DNA of 22,904 nucleotides, taken from positions 1 to 22,904 of IMG/VR virus record IMGVR_UViG_3300010354_000703; one strand, written 5' to 3'. Within the stretch, counting starts at the first letter, position 1. Every line of letters begins with the position of its first letter. The position numbers and the translations under genes were made by a program. This document shows, one piece after another, positions 4,726 through 13,889 of this stretch. This DNA comes from a virus. The notes under the pieces were generated by a model that was given only the letters and a program-made list of their open reading frames with translations, had not been told where the DNA came from and did not search any database.

Positions 4726-5699
4726 TGGGTTTCGCATACAACAACATCGACATGACTAAGAAGTCTCGGGGAGGCAGCGAGCTCATGGCCGAGAGGCTGG
4801 AGAAGCGAATCGACCCCGAGATGCTCAAGCACTTCCAGATCCACGTGTCTCGCGTAGGAGAGGTCGACGACAGCAAGATCCAACTGCTTCAGTTGCAGGA
4901 CCTGCCTGGCGACCCGGCGTCGGATCACCTGAAGAACGGCGGCTACAACAAGTTCGAGCGCCTCATCTTCGTATCCAACTGGCAGATGCAGAACTACATC
5001 CAGTACTACGGCATCCCGTGGTACAAGTGCTGCGTGCTTACCAACGCCATCGTGCCGGTGCCTGCGTCGTTAGACTTGAAGCCAAAAGATCAGGTCAACA
5101 TCATCTATCACACCACTCCGCATCGCGGTCTCGAGTTGCTGGTTCCTGCATTCATCGAATTGGCCAAGAACCACGACGACGTACATCTCGACGTCTTCTC
5201 CTCGTTCTCCATCTACGGATGGTCGGAGCGAGATAAGCCGTACGAGCCTCTCTTCGACATGATCAAGCAGCATCCGAAGATGACTTATCACGGGGCTCGT
5301 CCCAACGAGGAAGTTCGCGAGGCTCTGTCGAAGGCTCACATCTTCGCTTATCCCAACATCTGGATGGAGACTTCTTGCATGGCCCTGATGGAGGCCATGA
5401 GCGCCGAGTGTCTATGCGTCCATCCGAACTACGGCGCCCTCTACGAGACCGCGTCGCAGTACACCTGGATGTACCAGTGGCAGGACAACAAGCAGGATCA
5501 CCTCAATAACTTCTATCAGATGCTCGACGGCGCAGTCAAGGCCGTGCGTAACATGAGCGAGGTCCTCGAGGATACGCTGCAGGGGCAGAAGATCTTCGCT
5601 GATCGGTTCTACAACGTCGACATTAAGAAGTACGCCTGGGAGGCGCTGCTCAAGTCAATCCTCATCAAGAAGCGAATCGCTCATCATGATAATCCTTGA
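4725..5699 (+). CDS. Family 4-type glycosyltransferase
   Basis: 324 aa with a two-domain GT-B layout. The N-terminal half has a glycine-rich SRGGSELMAERL stretch (about 14-25), typical of the acceptor-side loop, and IFVSNWQMQ near 81-89. The C-terminal half has IIYHTTPHRGLELLVPAF near 126-143 and the donor-binding segment with an E-x7-E pair at Glu215 and Glu223 (WMETSCMALMEAM), as in retaining GT4 enzymes. It probably moves a sugar from a nucleotide donor. In T4-like phages the obvious acceptors are modified DNA bases, but protein or surface glycans are possible. ATG 4725 overlaps the upstream stop; a GTG three bases earlier is less likely. Confidence 0.82.
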   Translation: MGFAYNNIDMTKKSRGGSELMAERLEKRIDPEMLKHFQIHVSRVGEVDDSKIQLLQLQDLPGDPASDHLKNGGYNKFERLIFVSNWQMQNYIQYYGIPWYKCCVLTNAIVPVPASLDLKPKDQVNIIYHTTPHRGLELLVPAFIELAKNHDDVHLDVFSSFSIYGWSERDKPYEPLFDMIKQHPKMTYHGARPNEEVREALSKAHIFAYPNIWMETSCMALMEAMSAECLCVHPNYGALYETASQYTWMYQWQDNKQDHLNNFYQMLDGAVKAVRNMSEVLEDTLQGQKIFADRFYNVDIKKYAWEALLKSILIKKRIAHHDNP

Positions 5700-6543
5700 T
5701 CTCAATCAGGTCATGATCTCCAACCTGATGGTCCAGCTGGGCAACCACACCAATCATCAGGTAGAAGAAGACTTGCTGCGTCATATGATCCTGAACTCCA
5801 TTCGCCTGTATAAGCAGAAGTTCTCTGGTGAGTACGGCGAGCTGGTCATCGCTTGTGACGATAAGAACTACTGGCGCCGAAAGGTCTACCCCTACTACAA
5901 GGCTAACCGCAAGAAAGCCAGAGAGAAGTCGGAGCTGGACTGGACTAAGATCTTTGAGTCCCTGAATAAGATCAGGGCCGAGCTCAGGGAGGTGTTCCCG
6001 TATCCGACCATCCAGGTGGACTCCGTGGAGGCCGACGACGTCATCGCCACTCTGTGCTCTCTCAAGGGAGCCACGGTGTCCAGCGAGCGGATCCTCATCC
6101 TGTCCGGTGACAAGGACTTCAACCAACTCCAGAAGTATGGCAATGTCGAGCAATTTGACCCAGTGAGAAAAAAATGGATCAAGACCGACGATCCGTATAA
6201 ATATGTACAGGAGCACATCATGAGGGGGGACACCGGAGATGGCATCCCGAACTTCCTCTCAGACGACGATACCTTCGTATCGGACAAGAGACAGAAGCCC
6301 CTCACGCAGAAGAAGATCGACGCCTGGCTAGGCAAGGATCCGAGCGAGTTCTGCGACGACATGATGCTCCGCAACTACAAGCGAAACCAACAGTTGGTGG
6401 ACTTTGAGTTCATACCAGAAGATGTCAAGACTCGCATCCTCGACGAGTACAAGGCCCAGTCCGGTAAGACCCGCGACAAGCTATTCAACTACTTCATCCA
6501 AAACAAGCTAAAGAATTTGATGGAAGTCATAGGCGACTTCTAA
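5686..6543 (+). CDS. rnh: T4-type RNase H / 5'-3' exonuclease (FEN-like)
   Basis: 285 aa, slightly shorter than T4 RNase H (305 aa). The FEN-family acidic residues are in place: Asp5 (MIILDLNQ), Asp58/59 (ACDD), Glu115-Asp117-Asp118 (VEADDVIA), Asp142/144 (SGDKDFNQL) and Asp182/185 (RGDTGDGIPN). Arg/Lys-rich YYKANRKKARE near 70-80 corresponds to the helical arch. The enzyme removes RNA primers and adjacent DNA from lagging-strand fragments at the phage fork, assisted by gp32, which is encoded downstream. The ATG lies 14 bases inside the glycosyltransferase gene. A T4-late-like TATAAATA at 6196 is inside this coding sequence. Confidence 0.93.
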   Translation: MIILDLNQVMISNLMVQLGNHTNHQVEEDLLRHMILNSIRLYKQKFSGEYGELVIACDDKNYWRRKVYPYYKANRKKAREKSELDWTKIFESLNKIRAELREVFPYPTIQVDSVEADDVIATLCSLKGATVSSERILILSGDKDFNQLQKYGNVEQFDPVRKKWIKTDDPYKYVQEHIMRGDTGDGIPNFLSDDDTFVSDKRQKPLTQKKIDAWLGKDPSEFCDDMMLRNYKRNQQLVDFEFIPEDVKTRILDEYKAQSGKTRDKLFNYFIQNKLKNLMEVIGDF

Positions 6544-6985: not shown

Positions 6986-7137
6986 GCAAGACTTTTCATA
7001 AAGAGCCTGAGTACACTGACGGCGAGTATGGCAACTACTTCGCTCCGCACCAGAACAAAGACAATCGTCGCGCTAAGCGAATCGCGGTGCTCGCTAAGAA
7101 GAAGCGCCGAGACGATGACGAGGATTATGACACCTGA
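6982..7137 (+). CDS. Small highly charged protein, 51 aa, unknown function
   Basis: A short frame coupled on both sides: its ATG overlaps the upstream stop (ATGA) and its TGA overlaps the next ATG (TGATG). It begins MSKTFHKEPEYTDGEYGNYF, has a basic centre (NRRAKRIAVLAKKKRR) and ends in an acidic tail (DDDEDYDT). Basic patch followed by acidic tail suggests a disordered nucleic-acid or protein binder. Small proteins of this type sit next to phoH in other T4-like phages, from memory. No family assigned. Confidence 0.7.
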   Translation: MSKTFHKEPEYTDGEYGNYFAPHQNKDNRRAKRIAVLAKKKRRDDDEDYDT

Positions 7138-7391
7138 TGCCGACTTATACATTCACAGACTCCACTGGTAGAGAGTGGACGGAGTTCATGAGCATGAGCG
7201 AGCACGCCGAGTACTTACGTAGTAATCCGGATGTGCAGCAAGTACTTTATCCTACACCTCTCCTCGATCCGACCAGCCTGTCGGTCAAGGGGGTGAAGAA
7301 CAAGCCCGACTCGGGATTTAGAGACCTACTCAAAGATATGAAGAAGCGACACTCGGGAGGGTTGAGTAAGTCAACGATTAACACGTTCTAG
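7137..7391 (+). CDS. FmdB-like small protein lacking the zinc cysteines, 84 aa
   Basis: The N-terminus, MPTYTFTDSTGREWTEFMSMSE, follows the pattern of FmdB-type zinc ribbon regulators (MPTYEYxCxxCG ... F..MS). The C-terminus, with GFRDLLKDMKKRHSGG near 61-76, fits phage versions. All cysteines are absent: the first CxxC is DSTG and the second is replaced by NPDV. It therefore cannot form the usual ribbon, and the role (family function is itself poorly known) may rest on the C-terminal helix. It starts at the TGATG overlap and ends 7 bases before phoH. Confidence 0.65.
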   Translation: MPTYTFTDSTGREWTEFMSMSEHAEYLRSNPDVQQVLYPTPLLDPTSLSVKGVKNKPDSGFRDLLKDMKKRHSGGLSKSTINTF

Positions 7392-7398
7392 GAGTTCC

Positions 7399-8154
7399 AT
7401 GTACGAAGAGATCCAAGAGCTAACAAGAAAACAAAGAAAGCAGCTCAGAAGGAAGGAGAAACTTCAATACGATCCCAATCAGGCTCGTCGCGGCCTGGGA
7501 AATATGATGCTGAAGCGGGTCATGCCACTGACTGAGAATCAGCAGAAGACGTTCGAGGCCTACGAGTCCGGCAGGAATCTGCTGCTACACGGCATGGCAG
7601 GAACTGGCAAGACCTTCATCTCGATGTACCTAGCATTGGAAGACGTGATCAACAAGGAGGCCTACAATGATGTTACTGTCATTCGCTCTGTCGTTCCTAC
7701 TCGCGACATGGGCTTTCTACCTGGTAGCCAGGGCGAGAAGTCTAAGGCCTATGAGATGCCGTACTTCCCGATCGCAAAGGATCTCTTCAACCGCGGGGAC
7801 GCGTACGACATACTCAAGCAAAAGAAGCTGGTGAACTTCATCACCACCTCGTTCATCAGAGGAACCACCATCAACGACTCCGTCATCATCGTCGACGAGG
7901 TCGAGAACATGACTTTCCATGAGATAGACTCGGTCATCACTCGAGTCGGCAAAAACTGCAGAATCATATTCTGCGGAGACTTCAGACAGTCTGACCTGGC
8001 CAAGAGCGAGGATCGAAACGGCCTACTGAAGTTCATGGAGATAGTTGACAAATTACGCAACTTCGCTTACATTGAATTCGACAAAGACGACATCGTCAGA
8101 TCAGGATTAGTACGTGACTACATCATCGCTAAGACAAATCTCGGATACGCGTAA
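7399..8154 (+). CDS. phoH: PhoH-like P-loop ATPase
   Basis: 251 aa, of the short PhoH type widespread in marine and alphaproteobacterial T4-like phages. Walker A is GMAGTGKT at 65-72, Walker B VIIVDEVEN at 162-170 (Asp166, Glu167), and the sensor-like FCGDFRQSDL lies near 191-200. RSVVPTRDMGFLPGSQGEK (about 96-114) is the PhoH-specific loop. PhoH proteins are ATPases of uncertain role, linked to RNA metabolism and phosphate starvation in bacteria. The basic N-terminal helix (RKQRKQLRRKEK) may bind nucleic acid. AGGAG precedes the ATG. The last 41 bases overlap the nuclease gene if that uses its GTG start. Confidence 0.93.
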   Translation: MYEEIQELTRKQRKQLRRKEKLQYDPNQARRGLGNMMLKRVMPLTENQQKTFEAYESGRNLLLHGMAGTGKTFISMYLALEDVINKEAYNDVTVIRSVVPTRDMGFLPGSQGEKSKAYEMPYFPIAKDLFNRGDAYDILKQKKLVNFITTSFIRGTTINDSVIIVDEVENMTFHEIDSVITRVGKNCRIIFCGDFRQSDLAKSEDRNGLLKFMEIVDKLRNFAYIEFDKDDIVRSGLVRDYIIAKTNLGYA

Positions 8155-8866
8155 GGAGTTCTTACACCATCGTCTATCATTTGAAGAACTGAAGTCTCAT
8201 ACACTCGAGGGAGGATTCCGTCTGTACGAGAATGCGGACGGGGTCCTCTTTCCGTCTGTGACTACCGCTCTCGGAGACATGAAGAGGGAGTCGCTGATGG
8301 AGTGGCGCCGCAGAGTCGGCGAGGCCGAGGCAAACAAGATAGGTAGAGAGGCCGCTTCTCTAGGCACCAGGCTGCACACGATGTGCGAGAACTACCTGAA
8401 CAACGTGCCCGACTACGATCACAAGGCATTTCCCGGAGAGCTCGAGCTCTTCTCTAAAATGAGACCTGTACTCGACGAGCGAATCAGTGTAGTATACGCT
8501 CAAGAATTTCCGATGTACTCCCTCGACTTAGGAGTGGCCGGCAGGTGCGACTGCTTCTGCGTATTCGACGGGAAGCCCACGGTCGTAGACTTCAAGTCGT
8601 CCTCGAAATTGAAGAAAGAGGAGTGGATCGAGAACTACTTCATTCAGGCCACTGCGTACTGCCTGATGTTGCGAGAGAGATTCGGTCGTCCGATAGACAA
8701 GTTCGCCGTGCTGATCTCCTCGCCGGAGGGGATGCAGGTGTTTCACAAGGACACCGAAGACTATATAGAAGTGGCCAGAGACTACTTCAAGGGTTACCAC
8801 GCCAGGCACGGTCATACGCAGGAGTACTTCCGCGGCCTGATAGAGAGGAATGAGACATGTACTTAG
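8114..8866 (+). CDS. PD-(D/E)XK exonuclease (RecB/MGME1-like)
   Basis: 250 aa from a GTG at 8114. Motifs of RecB-family nucleases are in order: GTRLH at 84-88 (motif with His88), Glu131 in QEF, the core GRCDCF...VVDFKSS with Asp146 and Asp159-x-Lys161, and QATAY (Gln178-Tyr182), the QxxxY motif. It should degrade DNA ends in a metal-dependent way; recombination or host-DNA breakdown are both plausible. The start is uncertain: a strong AAGGAG sits at 8153-8158 but no normal start codon follows it in this frame, and conserved sequence begins around residue 20. The GTG with 41 bases of overlap into phoH is the only usual start available. Confidence 0.82.
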   Translation: MTTSSLRQISDTRKEFLHHRLSFEELKSHTLEGGFRLYENADGVLFPSVTTALGDMKRESLMEWRRRVGEAEANKIGREAASLGTRLHTMCENYLNNVPDYDHKAFPGELELFSKMRPVLDERISVVYAQEFPMYSLDLGVAGRCDCFCVFDGKPTVVDFKSSSKLKKEEWIENYFIQATAYCLMLRERFGRPIDKFAVLISSPEGMQVFHKDTEDYIEVARDYFKGYHARHGHTQEYFRGLIERNETCT

Positions 8867-9075
8867 ACTACTGGATGATCGCCATGCTCGTCGGTTGCTT
8901 CGGCGCCTGTGCATATCTCAGTCACTCCAGAGGTAGGCGAGACGGCATCCTCCTAGGCATAGAGGGAGCGTTCTCCTACTTAGAGAGACACAAGGTCATC
9001 TCGTTCTTGAAAGACGGATCCATCAAAGGCGCCAAGGGCAAGGTAGACGTCAAGAATTTGATGGACGAGGCATAA
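8857..9075 (+). CDS. Small single-pass membrane protein, 72 aa
   Basis: The ATG lies 10 bases inside the nuclease gene. Residues 5-21 (YWMIAMLVGCFGACAYL) form one transmembrane helix, followed by a positively charged SHSRGRRDG and a soluble C-terminal part ending VKNLMDEA. This suggests an N-out, C-in orientation by the positive-inside rule. T4-like phages often carry such small inner-membrane proteins of unknown function. Its stop codon TAA is embedded in the late-promoter-like CATAAATA upstream of the tmRNA. No family recognised. Confidence 0.7.
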   Translation: MYLDYWMIAMLVGCFGACAYLSHSRGRRDGILLGIEGAFSYLERHKVISFLKDGSIKGAKGKVDVKNLMDEA

Positions 9076-9078
9076 ATA
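9071..9078 (+). promoter_or_regulatory. Late-promoter-like motif before the tmRNA
   Basis: CATAAATA differs from the T4 late promoter TATAAATA by one base and is placed to start transcription around 9084, just ahead of the tmRNA acceptor piece. A related octamer (GATAAATA) forms both arms of the tail-operon promoter at 18908-18924. It also contains the stop codon of the upstream gene, so chance occurrence is possible. Confidence 0.4.
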
Positions 9079-9122
9079 GCGAACAGAATTATCGTAGAAG
9101 GAAGTTGAAAGACTACTTGGAC

Positions 9123-9150
9123 CCGGGTGCAACTCCCGGCGCCTCCACCA
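9123..9150 (+). ncRNA. tmRNA acceptor piece: T-arm and 3' acceptor strand with CCA
   Basis: T-stem 9123-9127 with 9135-9139, seven-base loop TGCAACT at 9128-9134, then the 3' acceptor strand 9140-9146, the A discriminator at 9147 and CCA at 9148-9150. The acceptor piece must extend upstream to about 9080-9110 to include the strand of the P2 helix. Confidence 0.9.
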
Positions 9151-9231
9151 CGAACACACCAGCCACCGAATAGAGCGTGTGGTCTTATATCGTGCTAGCC
9201 GATGAGATATGATAATCGGTGTGTTCTTGAT
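9151..9231 (+). other. tmRNA intervening segment, removed on maturation
   Basis: About 81 bases between the encoded CCA and the 5' G of the coding piece. GAACACACC (9152-9160) is perfectly complementary to GGTGTGTTC (9218-9226), so the segment folds back and continues the acceptor stem coaxially. This is the geometry expected of a permuted precursor awaiting end processing. Confidence 0.8.
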
Positions 9232-9361
9232 GGGGGCGAACTAGGATCGACAAGAGTGTAATAGGCGACTGGAGATAATCGTAGGCGACTACGTCAAGCG
9301 CAAAACGTTAAGTGCAAACGACAACTATGCACCTCGTTACGCCCTAGCGGCCTAACATGAG
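9232..9361 (+). ncRNA. tmRNA coding piece with proteolysis tag
   Basis: The 5' acceptor strand (9232-9238) leads into the D-like region and GGATCGACA, then the mRNA-like part. The resume codon is GCA at 9314-9316, the tag runs to GCC at 9350-9352, and TAA is at 9353-9355. The tag ends ALAA, a ClpXP-type degron. The end of the tag folds into a P5-like hairpin: CTCGTTA (9333-9339) pairs with TAAC-at-GAG (9353-9361), with GCC/GGC inside. Confidence 0.9.
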
Positions 9362-9366
9362 TTTTC

Positions 9367-9400
9367 GGTGGGTTTGACTTGGAAACAGAATAAACCCACC
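9367..9400 (+). other. Perfect 9-bp hairpin at the tmRNA 3' side
   Basis: GGTGGGTTT (9367-9375) pairs without mismatch with AAACCCACC (9392-9400) across a 16-base loop. No T-run follows, so it is not a standard intrinsic terminator. It may cap the coding piece, stop exonucleases, or mark the processing site between the tmRNA and the downstream mRNA. Confidence 0.65.
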
Positions 9401-9428
9401 ACTCTCAACACAAACACAGGAGACTACT

Positions 9429-9647
9429 ATGAATCCTTTCGAGATTCGACTCGCTCTGCTTAAACTCGCACAAGAGATTGAAAATGAACGAGCCATGAAT
9501 GAGCGCATTCGCCTAGAGAACGACTGGCAAATGATTCGCGAGAACGACACTAAGATCCCCTTCCCCACAGTTCCAGTAGTATCAGTCGAGGACGTCATCA
9601 AGGCGGCCGAGACTCTCAATGCCTTCGTATCGAAGAAGGACGCTTAA
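9429..9647 (+). CDS. Small helical phage protein, 72 aa, unknown function
   Basis: The ATG has an AGGAG ribosome binding site about 8 bases upstream, placed 28 bases after the tmRNA hairpin. The protein is an N-terminal helical region with charged and Leu residues (FEIRLALLKLAQEIENERAMNERIRLENDWQ), a Pro-rich linker (KIPFPTVPVV) and a second helix (VEDVIKAAETLNAFVSKKDA). The start, MNPFE-R, recalls a short family found in T4-like phages, from memory. The long first helix may form a coiled coil. No function assigned. Confidence 0.7.
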   Translation: MNPFEIRLALLKLAQEIENERAMNERIRLENDWQMIRENDTKIPFPTVPVVSVEDVIKAAETLNAFVSKKDA

Positions 9648-9662
9648 CAATAGGAGTAATGA

Positions 9663-10133
9663 ATGAAGTTTGCAAAGCACATCCTCGCCGCCGGCCTCTT
9701 GGCTTTGGCTACCGTTCCGGCCCACTCCGCCGCAGGAGTAAATGTAGGCACTCTCACCTGCGACGTAGACTCGGGAGTCGGGTATCTCATCGGATCTAGC
9801 AAGGACGTCGTCTGCGTCTATCGCGGCAACGGAAAGACCGAGCACTACGTCGGCAGCATCTCCAAGCTCGGGTTGGACCTCGGCGTCACCGGTAACCAGA
9901 CAGTAGTCTGGGCAGTGCTCGCTCCAGGTTCTCTCGGCAAGGGTGCTCTCGCCGGCAACTACTTCGGCGCCTCTGCCGAGGCCACTGTCGCCGTAGGCGT
10001 AGGTGTCAACGCCCTCGTAGGTGGCATGAAGAAGTCGGTCACACTCCAGCCGATCTCGGTGTCTGGACAGACCGGACTCAGCGCTACCCTGGCCGGTGCA
10101 TCGCTGCACCTCTCGCCAGTCAAGAACAAGTAA
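9663..10133 (+). CDS. Exported DUF992-type protein
   Basis: 156 aa. The first 22 residues form a signal peptide (basic start MKFAKH, hydrophobic core AAGLLALATV, AHS-AA cleavage site), so the mature protein should enter the periplasm. The rest fits the DUF992 family: VGTLTCDV with Cys33, GSSKDVVCVY with Cys51 (probably a disulfide pair), SISKLGLDLGVTG, VVWAVLAP, Gly-rich AVGVGVNALVGG and SVTLQPISVSGQTGLS. This family is, to my knowledge, concentrated in Alphaproteobacteria with unknown function. A phage copy suggests capture from a host. A good ribosome binding site (AGGAG) precedes the ATG. It lies between the tmRNA region and gene 33. Confidence 0.82.
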   Translation: MKFAKHILAAGLLALATVPAHSAAGVNVGTLTCDVDSGVGYLIGSSKDVVCVYRGNGKTEHYVGSISKLGLDLGVTGNQTVVWAVLAPGSLGKGALAGNYFGASAEATVAVGVGVNALVGGMKKSVTLQPISVSGQTGLSATLAGASLHLSPVKNK

Positions 10134-10161: not shown

Positions 10162-10401
10162 ATGAAAGTCAGTATTAAGTCGATGAGGTCGTCCTCTGAG
10201 ATCCTTCGTGGTATAGAGAAGCTCGTGATAGAGAAAGACATTCCCTACATAGACGCCGCCATTCACTACGCCGAGAAGAACAACATGGAGATCGAGACGG
10301 TGGCTAACATCATCAAGATGTCCACCGTCGTGAAGGCCAACATTCAGCTGGAGGCTGAGGCTCTCAACTTCATTCCGAAGACCGCACACCTCCCGATATG
10401 A
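10162..10401 (+). CDS. 33: Late-transcription co-activator gp33-like
   Basis: 79 aa. The core, YIDAAIHYAEKNNMEIETVANIIK, followed by ANIQLEAEALNFI, aligns by eye with T4 gp33 (YLEATTAFLEENSIPETQF ... IIEKIQSEAIDENLL). gp33 binds host RNA polymerase beta flap and links the sliding clamp to late promoters with gp55. Gene order 33-59-32 is the same as in T4, which strengthens the call. It is shorter than T4 gp33 (112 aa) and lacks a clear hydrophobic-acidic clamp-binding C-terminus like T4's DFLL. I chose ATG 10162 with AGGAG upstream over an earlier start at 10096 inside the DUF992 gene. Its stop overlaps gene 59 (ATGA). Confidence 0.8.
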   Translation: MKVSIKSMRSSSEILRGIEKLVIEKDIPYIDAAIHYAEKNNMEIETVANIIKMSTVVKANIQLEAEALNFIPKTAHLPI

Positions 10402-10973
10402 ATCCATTCGAGGCCTACACCACCTACCTGGCGGTGAAGAATCACTTCGAGCGTGACGGATACGACTACTTCAAGTATCGTGGCAAAGTGCCAGCGAAGC
10501 TGGAGTCCTTCTATGCTCGCAAGGACAGGTACTTCTTCGAGAAGCTGGCGCGCAAGGAAGACCTACTGGAATTCCTAGTCGCCAACTTCCTCGAGAATGA
10601 CAAGAGCTACTCGCGCGACCTCACACAGGAAGATGCCGAGCGAGTGTATCGAGACTGGGTGAAGAGGACTCAGTCGCTGACCTACAGATTCAGCGAGGAA
10701 CTCGAGAAGATCGAGGACCTGAAGCAGGCAGTCAGAGTAGAGGACGGGCAACACCCACAGCTACTGAAGATGTACATGCAGAAGAAGGTGTCAGCCGAGA
10801 CTATCCTAGTGATAGACTCTCTGGCCAACATCATCGAGGCGTGGGACAAGAAGATAGAGGACACAGTCATGTGGCCAACTATCAGGAGAAAGCTGGTCAA
10901 GTACAAGCCGTTTCTCAAGTTCGAGAAGGACAAGTTTCGAGAGATCGTTCTCGAGAGATACGTGAGGAACTGA
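10398..10973 (+). CDS. 59: Helicase loader gp59-like
   Basis: 191 aa against 217 in T4. It sits directly between genes 33 and 32, as in T4. The protein is helical and basic: MNPFEAYTTYLAVKNHF, YDYFKYRGKV, KLARKEDLLEFLVANFLEND, then a C-terminal domain around ALANIIEAWDKK and RRKLVKYKPFLKFEKDKFREIVL. gp59 binds forked DNA and gp32 and loads the replicative helicase gp41 at the fork. The N-terminal 'MNPF..Y..YLA.K.HF..D.YDYFKY.GK' pattern is characteristic of the family. The start overlaps the gp33 stop. The gene ends with two stop codons in tandem region TGATAA, about 100 bases before gene 32. Confidence 0.88.
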   Translation: MNPFEAYTTYLAVKNHFERDGYDYFKYRGKVPAKLESFYARKDRYFFEKLARKEDLLEFLVANFLENDKSYSRDLTQEDAERVYRDWVKRTQSLTYRFSEELEKIEDLKQAVRVEDGQHPQLLKMYMQKKVSAETILVIDSLANIIEAWDKKIEDTVMWPTIRRKLVKYKPFLKFEKDKFREIVLERYVRN

Positions 10974-11073: not shown

Positions 11074-12006
11074 ATGGACTTCGCTTCCCTCAAGAAGAAC
11101 CGCACGGCTCAGCTCGAGTCACTCACCGCGGAACTCAACAAGCTCAACACCAAGACCAATCAGCAGGCGGCAGACGACCGTTTCTGGTATCCGGCCGTAG
11201 ACAAGGCCGGTAACGGCTACGCCGTGATTCGCTTCCTCCCTCCATCCGAGGGTGAAGACGTACCATTCATTCGCATCTGGGACCACGGATTCAAGGGACC
11301 AGGCGGGTGGTACATCGAGAACTCCCGCACTTCTCTCGGTCCTAACGAGAAGGATCCAGTCGGCGAGTACAACTCCAAGCTCTGGAACGCAACCGAGGAC
11401 GACAACTCGCCTCAGCGTCGACAGGCCCGCGCTCAGAAGCGCCGTCTCACCTACATCTCTAACATCATCGTGCTGAAGGATCCTGCCAATCCTGAGAACG
11501 AGGGCAAGGTGTTCCTCTTCAAGTACGGCAAGAAGATCTTCGACAAGCTCCAGGAAGTCATGCATCCGCAGTTCCCGGACGAGAAGCCGCTGAACCCGTT
11601 CGACCTCTGGGACGGCGCTAACTTCCAGGTCAAGATCCGCAACGTCGAGGGCTATCGCAACTACGACAAGTCTCAGTTCTCTGAGTCTGGTCCGCTGCTC
11701 GACGACGATGCCAAGCTCGAGAAGATCTGGAAGAGGCAGCACAAGTTGAAGCCGTTCCTCGATCCGTCCAATTTCAAGTCCTACGACGAGTTGAAGGCCA
11801 AGCTCTACAAAGTGCTCGGTCTCGACGAAGTCTTGACTGACGGTGTGGCTGACGCTCCTGCTGCTCGTAAGCCAGCTCCCGCTCCTAAGCAGAGCGACGA
11901 CGACGAGCTCCCCTGGTCTACGCCGAAGGAGTCGAAGAAGAACGCAGTGGTCGAGGATGATGACGAGAGCCTCGAGTTCTTCAAGACTCTCGCCGAGGAC
12001 AACTAA
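11074..12006 (+). CDS. 32: Single-strand DNA binding protein gp32
   Basis: 310 aa (T4: 301). Landmarks match T4 gp32 by eye: the basic N-terminal cooperativity region (LKKNRTAQLESLTAELNK), NGYAVIRFLPP, DHGFK...WYIEN, ANPENEGKVFLFKYGKKIFDK, FDLWDGANFQVKI and YRNYDKSQF. It ends with an acidic tail (EDDDESLEFFKTLAEDN) like the T4 protein-interaction domain. The protein coats single strands at the fork and in recombination and recruits gp59. The three zinc cysteines of T4 (77, 87, 90) are replaced here by Ser84, Asp94 and Gly97, and the protein contains no Cys at all; the His ligand equivalent (His71) remains. Its stop overlaps the stop of the convergent tail gene. Confidence 0.95.
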   Translation: MDFASLKKNRTAQLESLTAELNKLNTKTNQQAADDRFWYPAVDKAGNGYAVIRFLPPSEGEDVPFIRIWDHGFKGPGGWYIENSRTSLGPNEKDPVGEYNSKLWNATEDDNSPQRRQARAQKRRLTYISNIIVLKDPANPENEGKVFLFKYGKKIFDKLQEVMHPQFPDEKPLNPFDLWDGANFQVKIRNVEGYRNYDKSQFSESGPLLDDDAKLEKIWKRQHKLKPFLDPSNFKSYDELKAKLYKVLGLDEVLTDGVADAPAARKPAPAPKQSDDDELPWSTPKESKKNAVVEDDDESLEFFKTLAEDN

Positions 12007-13889
12007 GTGAGAATCGGCATGACTACGACGTGAGTGTGTCTCTTCGTTTTGTATCGTGGTCGTGCCGATAACATCTCATGAGCGAACTTGATGGCTTTGC
12101 TCTGAGGTACGACGTACTCTGGCTCTCCGGCTTCTGCCACGAGGGCCAGAGTACCTCCCTTTTTAGGCTCTACTTTTCCACCCTCGGCCAGCGGCCGCAC
12201 GATCTTCAGTAAGCTCTGAGTACCCCTAGAAGACTCAGTGACGGCGCCACCTCCTCCGCTAGAATCAGACTGATTTCCACCCAACACCACGATGCTGTCG
12301 CCAGTGAAGCTCTTCACGAATCCCACGTGACCGCCGCCGCCTCTGGTGAACACTGCTATGTCGCCTGGTTGAACTGCACTGACGTCTCCGCCACCTTCAC
12401 GACTCCATACGGGTGCACCGTAGTCCAAGAAGCTCTTAGCCCAGGCTGATCCTGTTCCGGGGCGACCATTGCTAGCGAGGACAGAGTTAGTGAAAGCCGC
12501 GCACCAGGGAGTCTTAGCGACATCCCACGGCTGAAAGTACTGACCGATGAATGCGTTGAGTGTCGAGCGATCCTTGCCTTCACTCATTCCTAGGTACTGG
12601 CTGGCCGTAGATAGCAGGTCACCAGTCGGCGGCGGAAGAGGACCAGCAGGAGCCTGCTCTCCGCCTCCGTAGAGATTCTGCATGTACTGAGTCTGCTCTT
12701 GCTCAGTCTGTGGTATCGTGAGCCGCGTACGATTCAAAGCCTCATTGACGGCTGCGTTGGCAGTAGTAGGCGGAGTCTGTGGCTTAGCGAATGGCTCTAA
12801 ATCAACCGCTGATACTGGACCAGGGTACTCGACAGGCGAGTCTACCATCTGCTCGGCGGGAGGAGTAGGCGGCGTAGGTCCTGCTATCGGAGGAGCTAGC
12901 ATCGCTTGTACCGAGGCCTGCTCACTAGTCTGCTGAGGAACTGGTTCGAGTGCTGCTACAGGAGCAGGAGGCTCCTTCATTTGCATGGTGGCGTCTGGCG
13001 TCGCCTGAGTCGAAGCTGCTTCTTCCTCTTCTTCCTCGTCTCCGGTGTAGAGGTAGTCTACCACGCCGTTGACTAATTCGTCTACGCTGTCACCCAGCGC
13101 GTAGTCGGCTACCGCGCCACCTACGAGGCCAGCGATGAATCCTGGTAGGGCTCCTACTCCGAATCCAAGAGCTCCACCCACCATCGCGCCGAGGAAAGCT
13201 CCGACCCACATGAGGCCAAAGCTGGCTACTGCGCGGGCCACGATCTGAGTGACTGCTTGGCGATACTCGCCCTTCTTCATATTGGGATCGAGTGCTTGAA
13301 GCTCGGACCATATTCCCCAGAGACCGATGGCTAGGCCGAGGATTCCTAGTCCCTTTGGCAACTTGTACTTGCTGTCAGGCGCTTTGGCTTCTTTAGGAGC
13401 TTTGCCTCCGGCTCTCTCTTCTCTCCACTTGTCTATCTTCGCTCTTCTGGCCGCTTCCTTCTCTGCGTTGCTGAGAGTCCTGTTGTTTCCTGGAGTCCTG
13501 CCACCCGTTCTATTCTTGAGGCGCCTGAGAGCCTCGAATCCACCGGCTGCTAAGAAGTCGATGAGAGCATTAGAGACGTCTTCTGCGCTCTTTGACGTAT
13601 TGCTGATGCCGTCTTCTCGAGCAGCCCTGGCATTCTGTAAGCTATTCATGGAGTCGCGAAGCTCGTCCATCTCTTCGCTCAGAGAAGTCAGTGCTCTACC
13701 TATCTTCTGAGACACCTGGCTCGTGGCGCTAGAGAGGGCGCGCAGACCTCTGACTTCTCTCTCGAGCAAGTCGTCCACGTTCTTGAGTATGTTCTGATTA
13801 CTGCGATAGTCGATAGGATAGAACGCTCTTAAAAAAGAGTTTCCTATCTTCGTCTTGATCTTGAGTAGTTCTCTGTCTGCTGTTGCCAT
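12003..13889 (-). CDS. Tape-measure-like tail protein with CHAP-type hydrolase domain
   Basis: 628 aa, last gene of the minus-strand tail operon. The N-terminal 110 residues are coiled-coil-like. Residues about 180-280 are hydrophobic and Gly/Ala-rich (GILGLAIGLWGIW; FLGAMVGGALGFGVGALPGFIAGLVGG). A Pro-rich linker (300-425) leads to a cysteine amidase/peptidase domain with PWCAAF (Cys463), GDIAVF, GHVGF (His521) and VLGGNQ (Asn539), as in TIGR02594/CHAP-like enzymes. The C-terminus has GGTLALVAEAGEPEYVVPQ, the 'G-E-x-x-P-E-x-V-x-P' signature typical of tape-measure protein ends. It probably lines or follows the tail tube and cuts peptidoglycan during DNA entry. Its stop overlaps the gp32 stop by 2 bases. 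Confidence 0.78.
   Translation of the reverse strand: MATADRELLKIKTKIGNSFLRAFYPIDYRSNQNILKNVDDLLEREVRGLRALSSATSQVSQKIGRALTSLSEEMDELRDSMNSLQNARAAREDGISNTSKSAEDVSNALIDFLAAGGFEALRRLKNRTGGRTPGNNRTLSNAEKEAARRAKIDKWREERAGGKAPKEAKAPDSKYKLPKGLGILGLAIGLWGIWSELQALDPNMKKGEYRQAVTQIVARAVASFGLMWVGAFLGAMVGGALGFGVGALPGFIAGLVGGAVADYALGDSVDELVNGVVDYLYTGDEEEEEEAASTQATPDATMQMKEPPAPVAALEPVPQQTSEQASVQAMLAPPIAGPTPPTPPAEQMVDSPVEYPGPVSAVDLEPFAKPQTPPTTANAAVNEALNRTRLTIPQTEQEQTQYMQNLYGGGEQAPAGPLPPPTGDLLSTASQYLGMSEGKDRSTLNAFIGQYFQPWDVAKTPWCAAFTNSVLASNGRPGTGSAWAKSFLDYGAPVWSREGGGDVSAVQPGDIAVFTRGGGGHVGFVKSFTGDSIVVLGGNQSDSSGGGGAVTESSRGTQSLLKIVRPLAEGGKVEPKKGGTLALVAEAGEPEYVVPQSKAIKFAHEMLSARPRYKTKRHTHVVVMPILT

Follow-up and report, generated by a model that had tools for sequence, protein, structure and literature searches.

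Two-piece tmRNA genes have been known in phages since 2022, when one was published for the Methylophilales phage Melnitz and was read as acquired from an alphaproteobacterium (PMC9004378). The same study reported tmRNA genes in 402 of 18,146 phage genomes; among 133 distinct ones, 53 were two-piece, 50 of them aquatic, and a tmRNA was carried by 17 of 47 Melnitz-like contigs (PMC9004378). In Alphaproteobacteria the permuted form is the norm: 105 of the 115 genomes sampled here scored above the cut-off of the permuted tmRNA model, and so did 56 of 58 genomes of the SAR11 order. The permutation itself, which the original prediction for the locus described below had treated as remarkable, is therefore ordinary in this class of bacteria.

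The sequence analysed here, referred to as the window, is the whole of a linear virus record of 22,904 bases (IMGVR_UViG_3300010354_000703). Judged by its genes, among them one for an RNase H/exonuclease at 5686-6543, it belongs to a T4-like myovirus. The stretch from 9080 to 9400 on the plus strand was confirmed by sequence analysis as a complete circularly permuted (two-piece) tmRNA gene of the alphaproteobacterial type.

Anatomy of the gene and its surroundings

On the window, ARAGORN called a single gene, a permuted tmRNA (tmRNA*) at 9056-9446 of the plus strand with the tag ANDNYAPRYALAA. Two Rfam models were matched over their full length, RF04321 (tmRNA_permuted) at 9088-9355 with 109.7 bits (cut-off 47, E 5.9e-21) and RF01849 (alpha_tmRNA) at 9046-9400 with 91.8 bits (cut-off 50, E 4.4e-24). 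Chance is excluded as the source of these matches. A permuted, phage-encoded tmRNA with a tag of its own had been proposed from the bare sequence, together with a check by the alphaproteobacterial Rfam model, and both programs bear the proposal out.

The gene begins with the acceptor piece, followed by an intervening segment and then by the coding piece. The acceptor piece (9080-9150, plus strand, 5' end approximate) contains the 3' acceptor strand, the T arm and an encoded A73-CCA. In the T arm (9123-9139, plus strand), CCGGG and CCCGG enclose the loop UGCAACU, which is of the G55 type. The G at position 55 was considered as a sign of decay and rejected, as the same loop types dominate the tmRNAs of Alphaproteobacteria themselves. 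Across the two pieces, GGGGGCG (9232-9238) pairs with CGCCUCC (9140-9146) to give an acceptor stem with a G3-U70 pair; the complete stem with its G-U pair and the encoded CCA had been predicted correctly. The intervening segment (9151-9231, plus strand, 81 nt) ends in UGAU directly 5' of G1, and its ends form a helix of 9 bp (9152-9160 with 9218-9226). It is probably cut out during maturation.

The coding, mRNA-like piece extends from G1 at 9232 to 9400 on the plus strand and, with about 169 nt, is longer than the roughly 130 bases first estimated. Its tag reading frame runs from the resume codon GCA through the stop codon TAA (9314-9355, plus strand) and specifies ANDNYAPRYALAA, which, as had been expected of a degron, ends in LAA of the ClpXP type. 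The piece closes with a 3'-terminal hairpin (9367-9400, plus strand), in which a stem of 9 bp (9367-9375 with 9392-9400) carries the conserved loop CUUGGAAACAGAA. In a close relative (L006) this stem is swapped for a different paired stem, and the loop is the same.

Further strands of the acceptor piece that pair with the coding piece lie at 9088-9093, 9103-9107 and 9116-9119 of the plus strand. When the single sequence was co-folded, the inter-piece helix was not reproduced exactly; the interaction energy obtained was unexceptional, with 23 of 200 shuffles as low. Pairing between the pieces is supported by covariation across phage sequences: among 73 distinct phage tmRNAs, the six pairs of the inter-piece helix are formed in 72-100%, with three to five pair types and many two-sided changes.

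Upstream of the tmRNA, genes were predicted for a small transcriptional regulator (phrog_385, 7137-7391) and, in a conserved block, for a PhoH-like protein (phrog_170, 7399-8154, plus strand) and an exonuclease (phrog_298, 8114-8866, plus strand), the latter being the conserved neighbour on this side. Two small open reading frames of 72 aa each, belonging to no family, flank the tmRNA directly at 8857-9075 and 9429-9647, both on the plus strand. The conserved neighbour downstream specifies a gp33-like late-promoter transcription accessory protein (phrog_254, 10165-10401, plus strand) and is followed on the same strand by genes for a gp59-like DNA helicase loader (phrog_269, 10398-10973) and a gp32-like single-stranded DNA binding protein (11074-12006). 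Between the tmRNA and gp33, a reading frame at 9663-10133 starts like a signal peptide and matched no PHROG; it was not found in the close relatives L006 and L007, which suggests recent insertion or loss. On the minus strand, 12003-13889 specifies a large protein with a C-terminal stretch that looks CHAP-like or peptidase-like by eye; it may be a lytic tail component. A scan around the tmRNA for promoters of the sigma-70 type and for intrinsic terminators, which does not extend to phage promoter types, gave no match.

Permuted tmRNAs in related phages

Permuted tmRNAs were collected from related records by a pattern for the tag region. Exonuclease or PhoH genes upstream and/or gp33, gp59 or gp32 genes downstream, in the same direction, accompany 63 of 80 pattern-found tmRNAs, a count from which the loci of named phages and those reached by way of PhoH are left out; both flanks are present in 36 of the 80. 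Since this set had been picked by similarity in the tag region, a second one was drawn by gp32 alone, which makes the sampling blind to the tmRNA. ARAGORN alone misses many copies, and carriers in this set were therefore counted with RF04321. Of the 50 T4-like records, 26 scored above its cut-off. If three weak matches are counted as well, there are 29, and 28 of them are located 1.1-6.4 kb upstream of gp32, on the strand of that gene. Together with the published frequencies given above, these numbers do not support the view that such a gene is exceptionally rare.

About half of the relatives sampled through gp32 gave no tmRNA match, many of these records being fragments. The gene was likewise not found in the cyanophages P-RSM4, P-SSM7 and S-SZBM1, where the exonuclease gene is directly followed by gp33. 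Both observations mean that the tmRNA is dispensable. The alternative rescue factor ArfB (PF00472) was detected in none of 27 records of relatives lacking a tmRNA match. In the window, in Pelagibacter phages HTVC008M and Mosig, and in Melnitz, the tmRNA is situated between the exonuclease gene and gp33.

Single records deserve mention. Stenotrophomonas phage DLP_6 contains an unannotated permuted tmRNA (KU682439.2, 102838-103059; 136.8 bits; tag ANDDSFAPMAIAA) located in the tRNA region and not near PhoH or gp32. In the genome bin Rhodobacteraceae bacterium Water_Bin34, eight contigs account for eight permuted tmRNA matches, which suggests that phage contigs are present in it.

The structural features of the window recur in the relatives. 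T and acceptor stems are paired in 97-100% of the 73 distinct phage sequences. G3-U70 was seen in 73 of 73, where the parser had required it, and in 86 of 86 phage genes with a relaxed parser that had no such requirement. A terminal helix of at least seven pairs is formed by 64 of 64 phage intervening segments tested, compared with 18% of shuffled controls, and a long terminal helix of this kind by 20 of 27 bacterial segments. Phage segments usually end in UGAU immediately before G1, plausibly a processing signal. For 26 phage genes missed by the parser, loss of the encoded CCA was considered and rejected: CCA is visible in the Rfam alignments of those examined, and the genes were missed because the parser demanded GAC where they read GAU.

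For an assessment of the tag that is independent of the choice made by ARAGORN, translation was started downstream of a 17-base pattern spanning the resume-codon region only. Among 90 distinct sequences picked in this way, which are kin and do not count as independent events, the tag frame ends in AA in 84 and in LAA in 77; no such ends occur in the other two frames of the same sequences. In the last two tag codons of the 84 AA-ending sequences, bases one and two are invariant and the third is close to random, with 1.77 and 1.96 bits. This pattern marks selection acting on the peptide and is consistent with a ClpXP degron. Deviating tags were also observed. In some phages the tag ends in VA, not AA (L042, L087 and L100; ANDNSYRMVA, ANDNSFRQVA), possibly a weakened or different degron, and L042 scores in addition against the betaproteobacterial tmRNA model. 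ARAGORN gave an odd tag, AHNDNDFAAVRMSA, for two records (L240, L241) whose RF04321 scores are weaker; there the gene may be diverging, or the resume codon may have been placed wrongly.

The main benefit of the phage gene could lie in the tag itself, if a tag foreign to the host altered which tagged proteins undergo degradation or the rate at which they do. The 53 distinct phage tags, none of which is identical to any sampled bacterial tag, fit such a role, as does the tag of HTVC008M, ANFNEYALAA, which is unlike ANDELALAA, ANNKLALAA and the other SAR11 tags sampled. However, the ends relevant to known adaptors and to ClpX, the ANDN start and the LAA end, are conserved among the phages, which speaks for ordinary degradation, and the middle residues vary among bacteria too. 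Reprogramming as the main benefit is therefore considered rather unlikely.

Relationship to bacterial tmRNAs

In 337 alphaproteobacterial genomes, the closest bacterial DNA matched the window gene over only about 30-45 bases at a time, and with matches confined to such short stretches a host could not be assigned by tmRNA similarity. A first tree of 126 sequences placed phage and bacterial tmRNAs on opposite sides of one branch (support 99/90). The tree was enlarged to 161 sequences, 74 from phages and 87 from bacteria, by adding SAR11 and further members of the class. In this tree, 73 of the 74 phage sequences and none of the 87 bacterial ones are found on one side of a branch with support 98/97. 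The remaining sequence, L139, sits on a long branch, and T4-like neighbours are missing from its strand. Two label changes are needed on the tree, and a constraint uniting all phage sequences in one clade was not rejected (p-AU 0.504, 159 sequences); with an alignment of about 163 columns, a single origin and a few origins are not firmly separable.

Distances between the phage tmRNAs follow those of the exonuclease (r 0.81) and of gp59 (r 0.62); with gp32 they correlate weakly (0.39), and not at all among distant pairs. Taken with the tree, these distances indicate that the gene has a long history in phages and has mostly been passed on along with its neighbours, apart from some exchange; the weak gp32 correlation makes transfer between phages likely.

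These comparisons place the window gene on a separate phage branch, not among recent copies of host genes. For a recent capture from the host, by transduction or as the remnant of an integration site and with no phage-specific role, it can be said that tmRNA genes are common integration sites of mobile elements (PMC11915505) and that acquisition from an alphaproteobacterium has been suggested for Melnitz (PMC9004378). The phage is T4-like, however, and the gene is found at a conserved phage site in numerous divergent relatives. Together with the shortness of the best bacterial matches, the separate position in the tree and the peptide-level selection on the tag within the phage set, this makes recent capture highly improbable. 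Separation from all sampled host tmRNAs also argues against a recent capture from SAR11, one possible reading of the alphaproteobacterial origin given in the Melnitz paper.

Somewhat favoured, beyond the window itself, is a wider interpretation in which T4-like phages of Alphaproteobacteria and their allies have long had the permuted tmRNA as a semi-core gene. The gene would have been acquired once and inherited at the site between exonuclease and gp33, the branch diversifying independently of host tmRNAs, and would provide a private rescue RNA that borrows only SmpB, processing enzymes and proteases from the host. Three points were not found in the open-access literature searched: that many divergent phages share the exonuclease-gp33 locus, that phage tmRNAs form a separate branch, and that the tag codons show selection on the peptide. 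The second and third appear to be new, and earlier notice elsewhere is possible.

Proposed function and comparison with known systems

The window gene very probably specifies a functional two-piece tmRNA of a phage lineage, long resident there, which would use host SmpB for ribosome rescue and for tagging of proteins for ClpXP. One transcript would be cut on either side of the intervening segment, presumably by host enzymes, and the resulting acceptor and coding pieces would stay joined through base pairing. Host alanyl-tRNA synthetase would charge the RNA via G3-U70, and host SmpB, EF-Tu and ribosomes would use it. During infection, ribosomes stalled on broken mRNAs would be freed; the tag ANDNYAPRYALAA would be added after the alanine carried by the tmRNA, and its LAA end would direct the product to ClpXP. 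Most likely, the benefit would be a continued supply of available ribosomes at a time when host nucleic acids are under attack by the phage, and a copy of its own would make the phage independent of the host tmRNA supply. The gene would have been acquired long ago and inherited since then at one site, between exonuclease and gp33, though sometimes lost and sometimes exchanged among phages.

Observations on other phages are in line with such a role. When T4 infects E. coli, tRNAs are degraded but four host transcripts remain stable. SsrA is among them, and was speculated by the authors to keep ribosomes available (PMC9697503). Infection by lambda-immP22 is 10,000-fold less frequent when ssrA or smpB is missing (PMC2862035). 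Rescue after host takeover and altered degradation, the roles originally suggested, are both reasonable possibilities. Against the reading as a rescue RNA counts that such hosts already own a permuted tmRNA, which leaves the need for a second one unexplained.

As predicted, smpB is absent from the window, and SmpB was found in none of 54 related phage records, including Melnitz, HTVC008M and Mosig, which supports the suggested reliance on the host protein. Competition for host SmpB is then to be expected, and the phage RNA might act as a regulator or inhibitor that blocks or redirects trans-translation of the host. A precedent is the tag-less tmRNA of phage DS6A, which inhibits the endogenous tmRNA in E. 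coli (recounted in PMC11915505). An inhibitor would not need the alanine identity pair, the CCA and a selected degron tag, yet all these functional parts are kept, and inhibition as the main role seems quite improbable. Like reprogramming by the tag, it is possible but less well supported than ribosome rescue by a functional phage tmRNA.

With this reading, what was a curiosity of a few marine phages becomes general within a large group of environmental T4-like phages. It points to ribosome rescue as a bottleneck that recurs in infections, inviting comparison with phage-borne tRNAs, and the phage branch set against the host branch offers an evolutionary test. Cultured systems for the question are HTVC008M, Mosig and Melnitz.

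Melnitz resembles the window in having its permuted tmRNA after the PhoH/exonuclease block and before gp33, with an ANDN...ALAA tag, and in Mosig the gene likewise follows the exonuclease and precedes gp33; lack of a detectable SmpB is common to both. Melnitz differs in that its tmRNA is followed directly by a glutamine riboswitch (RF01739, 52.8 bits), and the Melnitz DNA matches the window over only about 170 nt at 73%. Such a riboswitch was considered for 8850-9700 of the window and rejected, as no match was obtained even at E up to 1. HTVC008M has an RF04321 match of 90.6 bits between exonuclease and gp33, but its tag is shorter and departs from ANDN. Its gene, at 145161-145370 of KC465899.1, is absent from the annotation of the record. 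The Rhodobacter phages RcSimone-Hastad and RcRudolph also carry tmRNAs with RF04321 matches and an ANDN...ALAA tag; their genomes are of another type, however, and the tmRNA adjoins HIRAN-domain and topoisomerase genes instead of gp33. In RcRudolph (OP009285.1, 49133-49421), the hypothetical protein RCRUDOLPH_61 is annotated over the permuted tmRNA, and the homologue in RcSimone-Hastad is unannotated. The permuted tmRNAs of Alphaproteobacteria (RF01849, RF04321) are set apart by the separate branch of the phage sequences and by the long terminal helix of the intervening segment, which is not universal in bacteria, but they share with the phage genes the gene order, the two-piece design, the T-loop types, G3-U70, CCA and tags of the ANDN...AA type.
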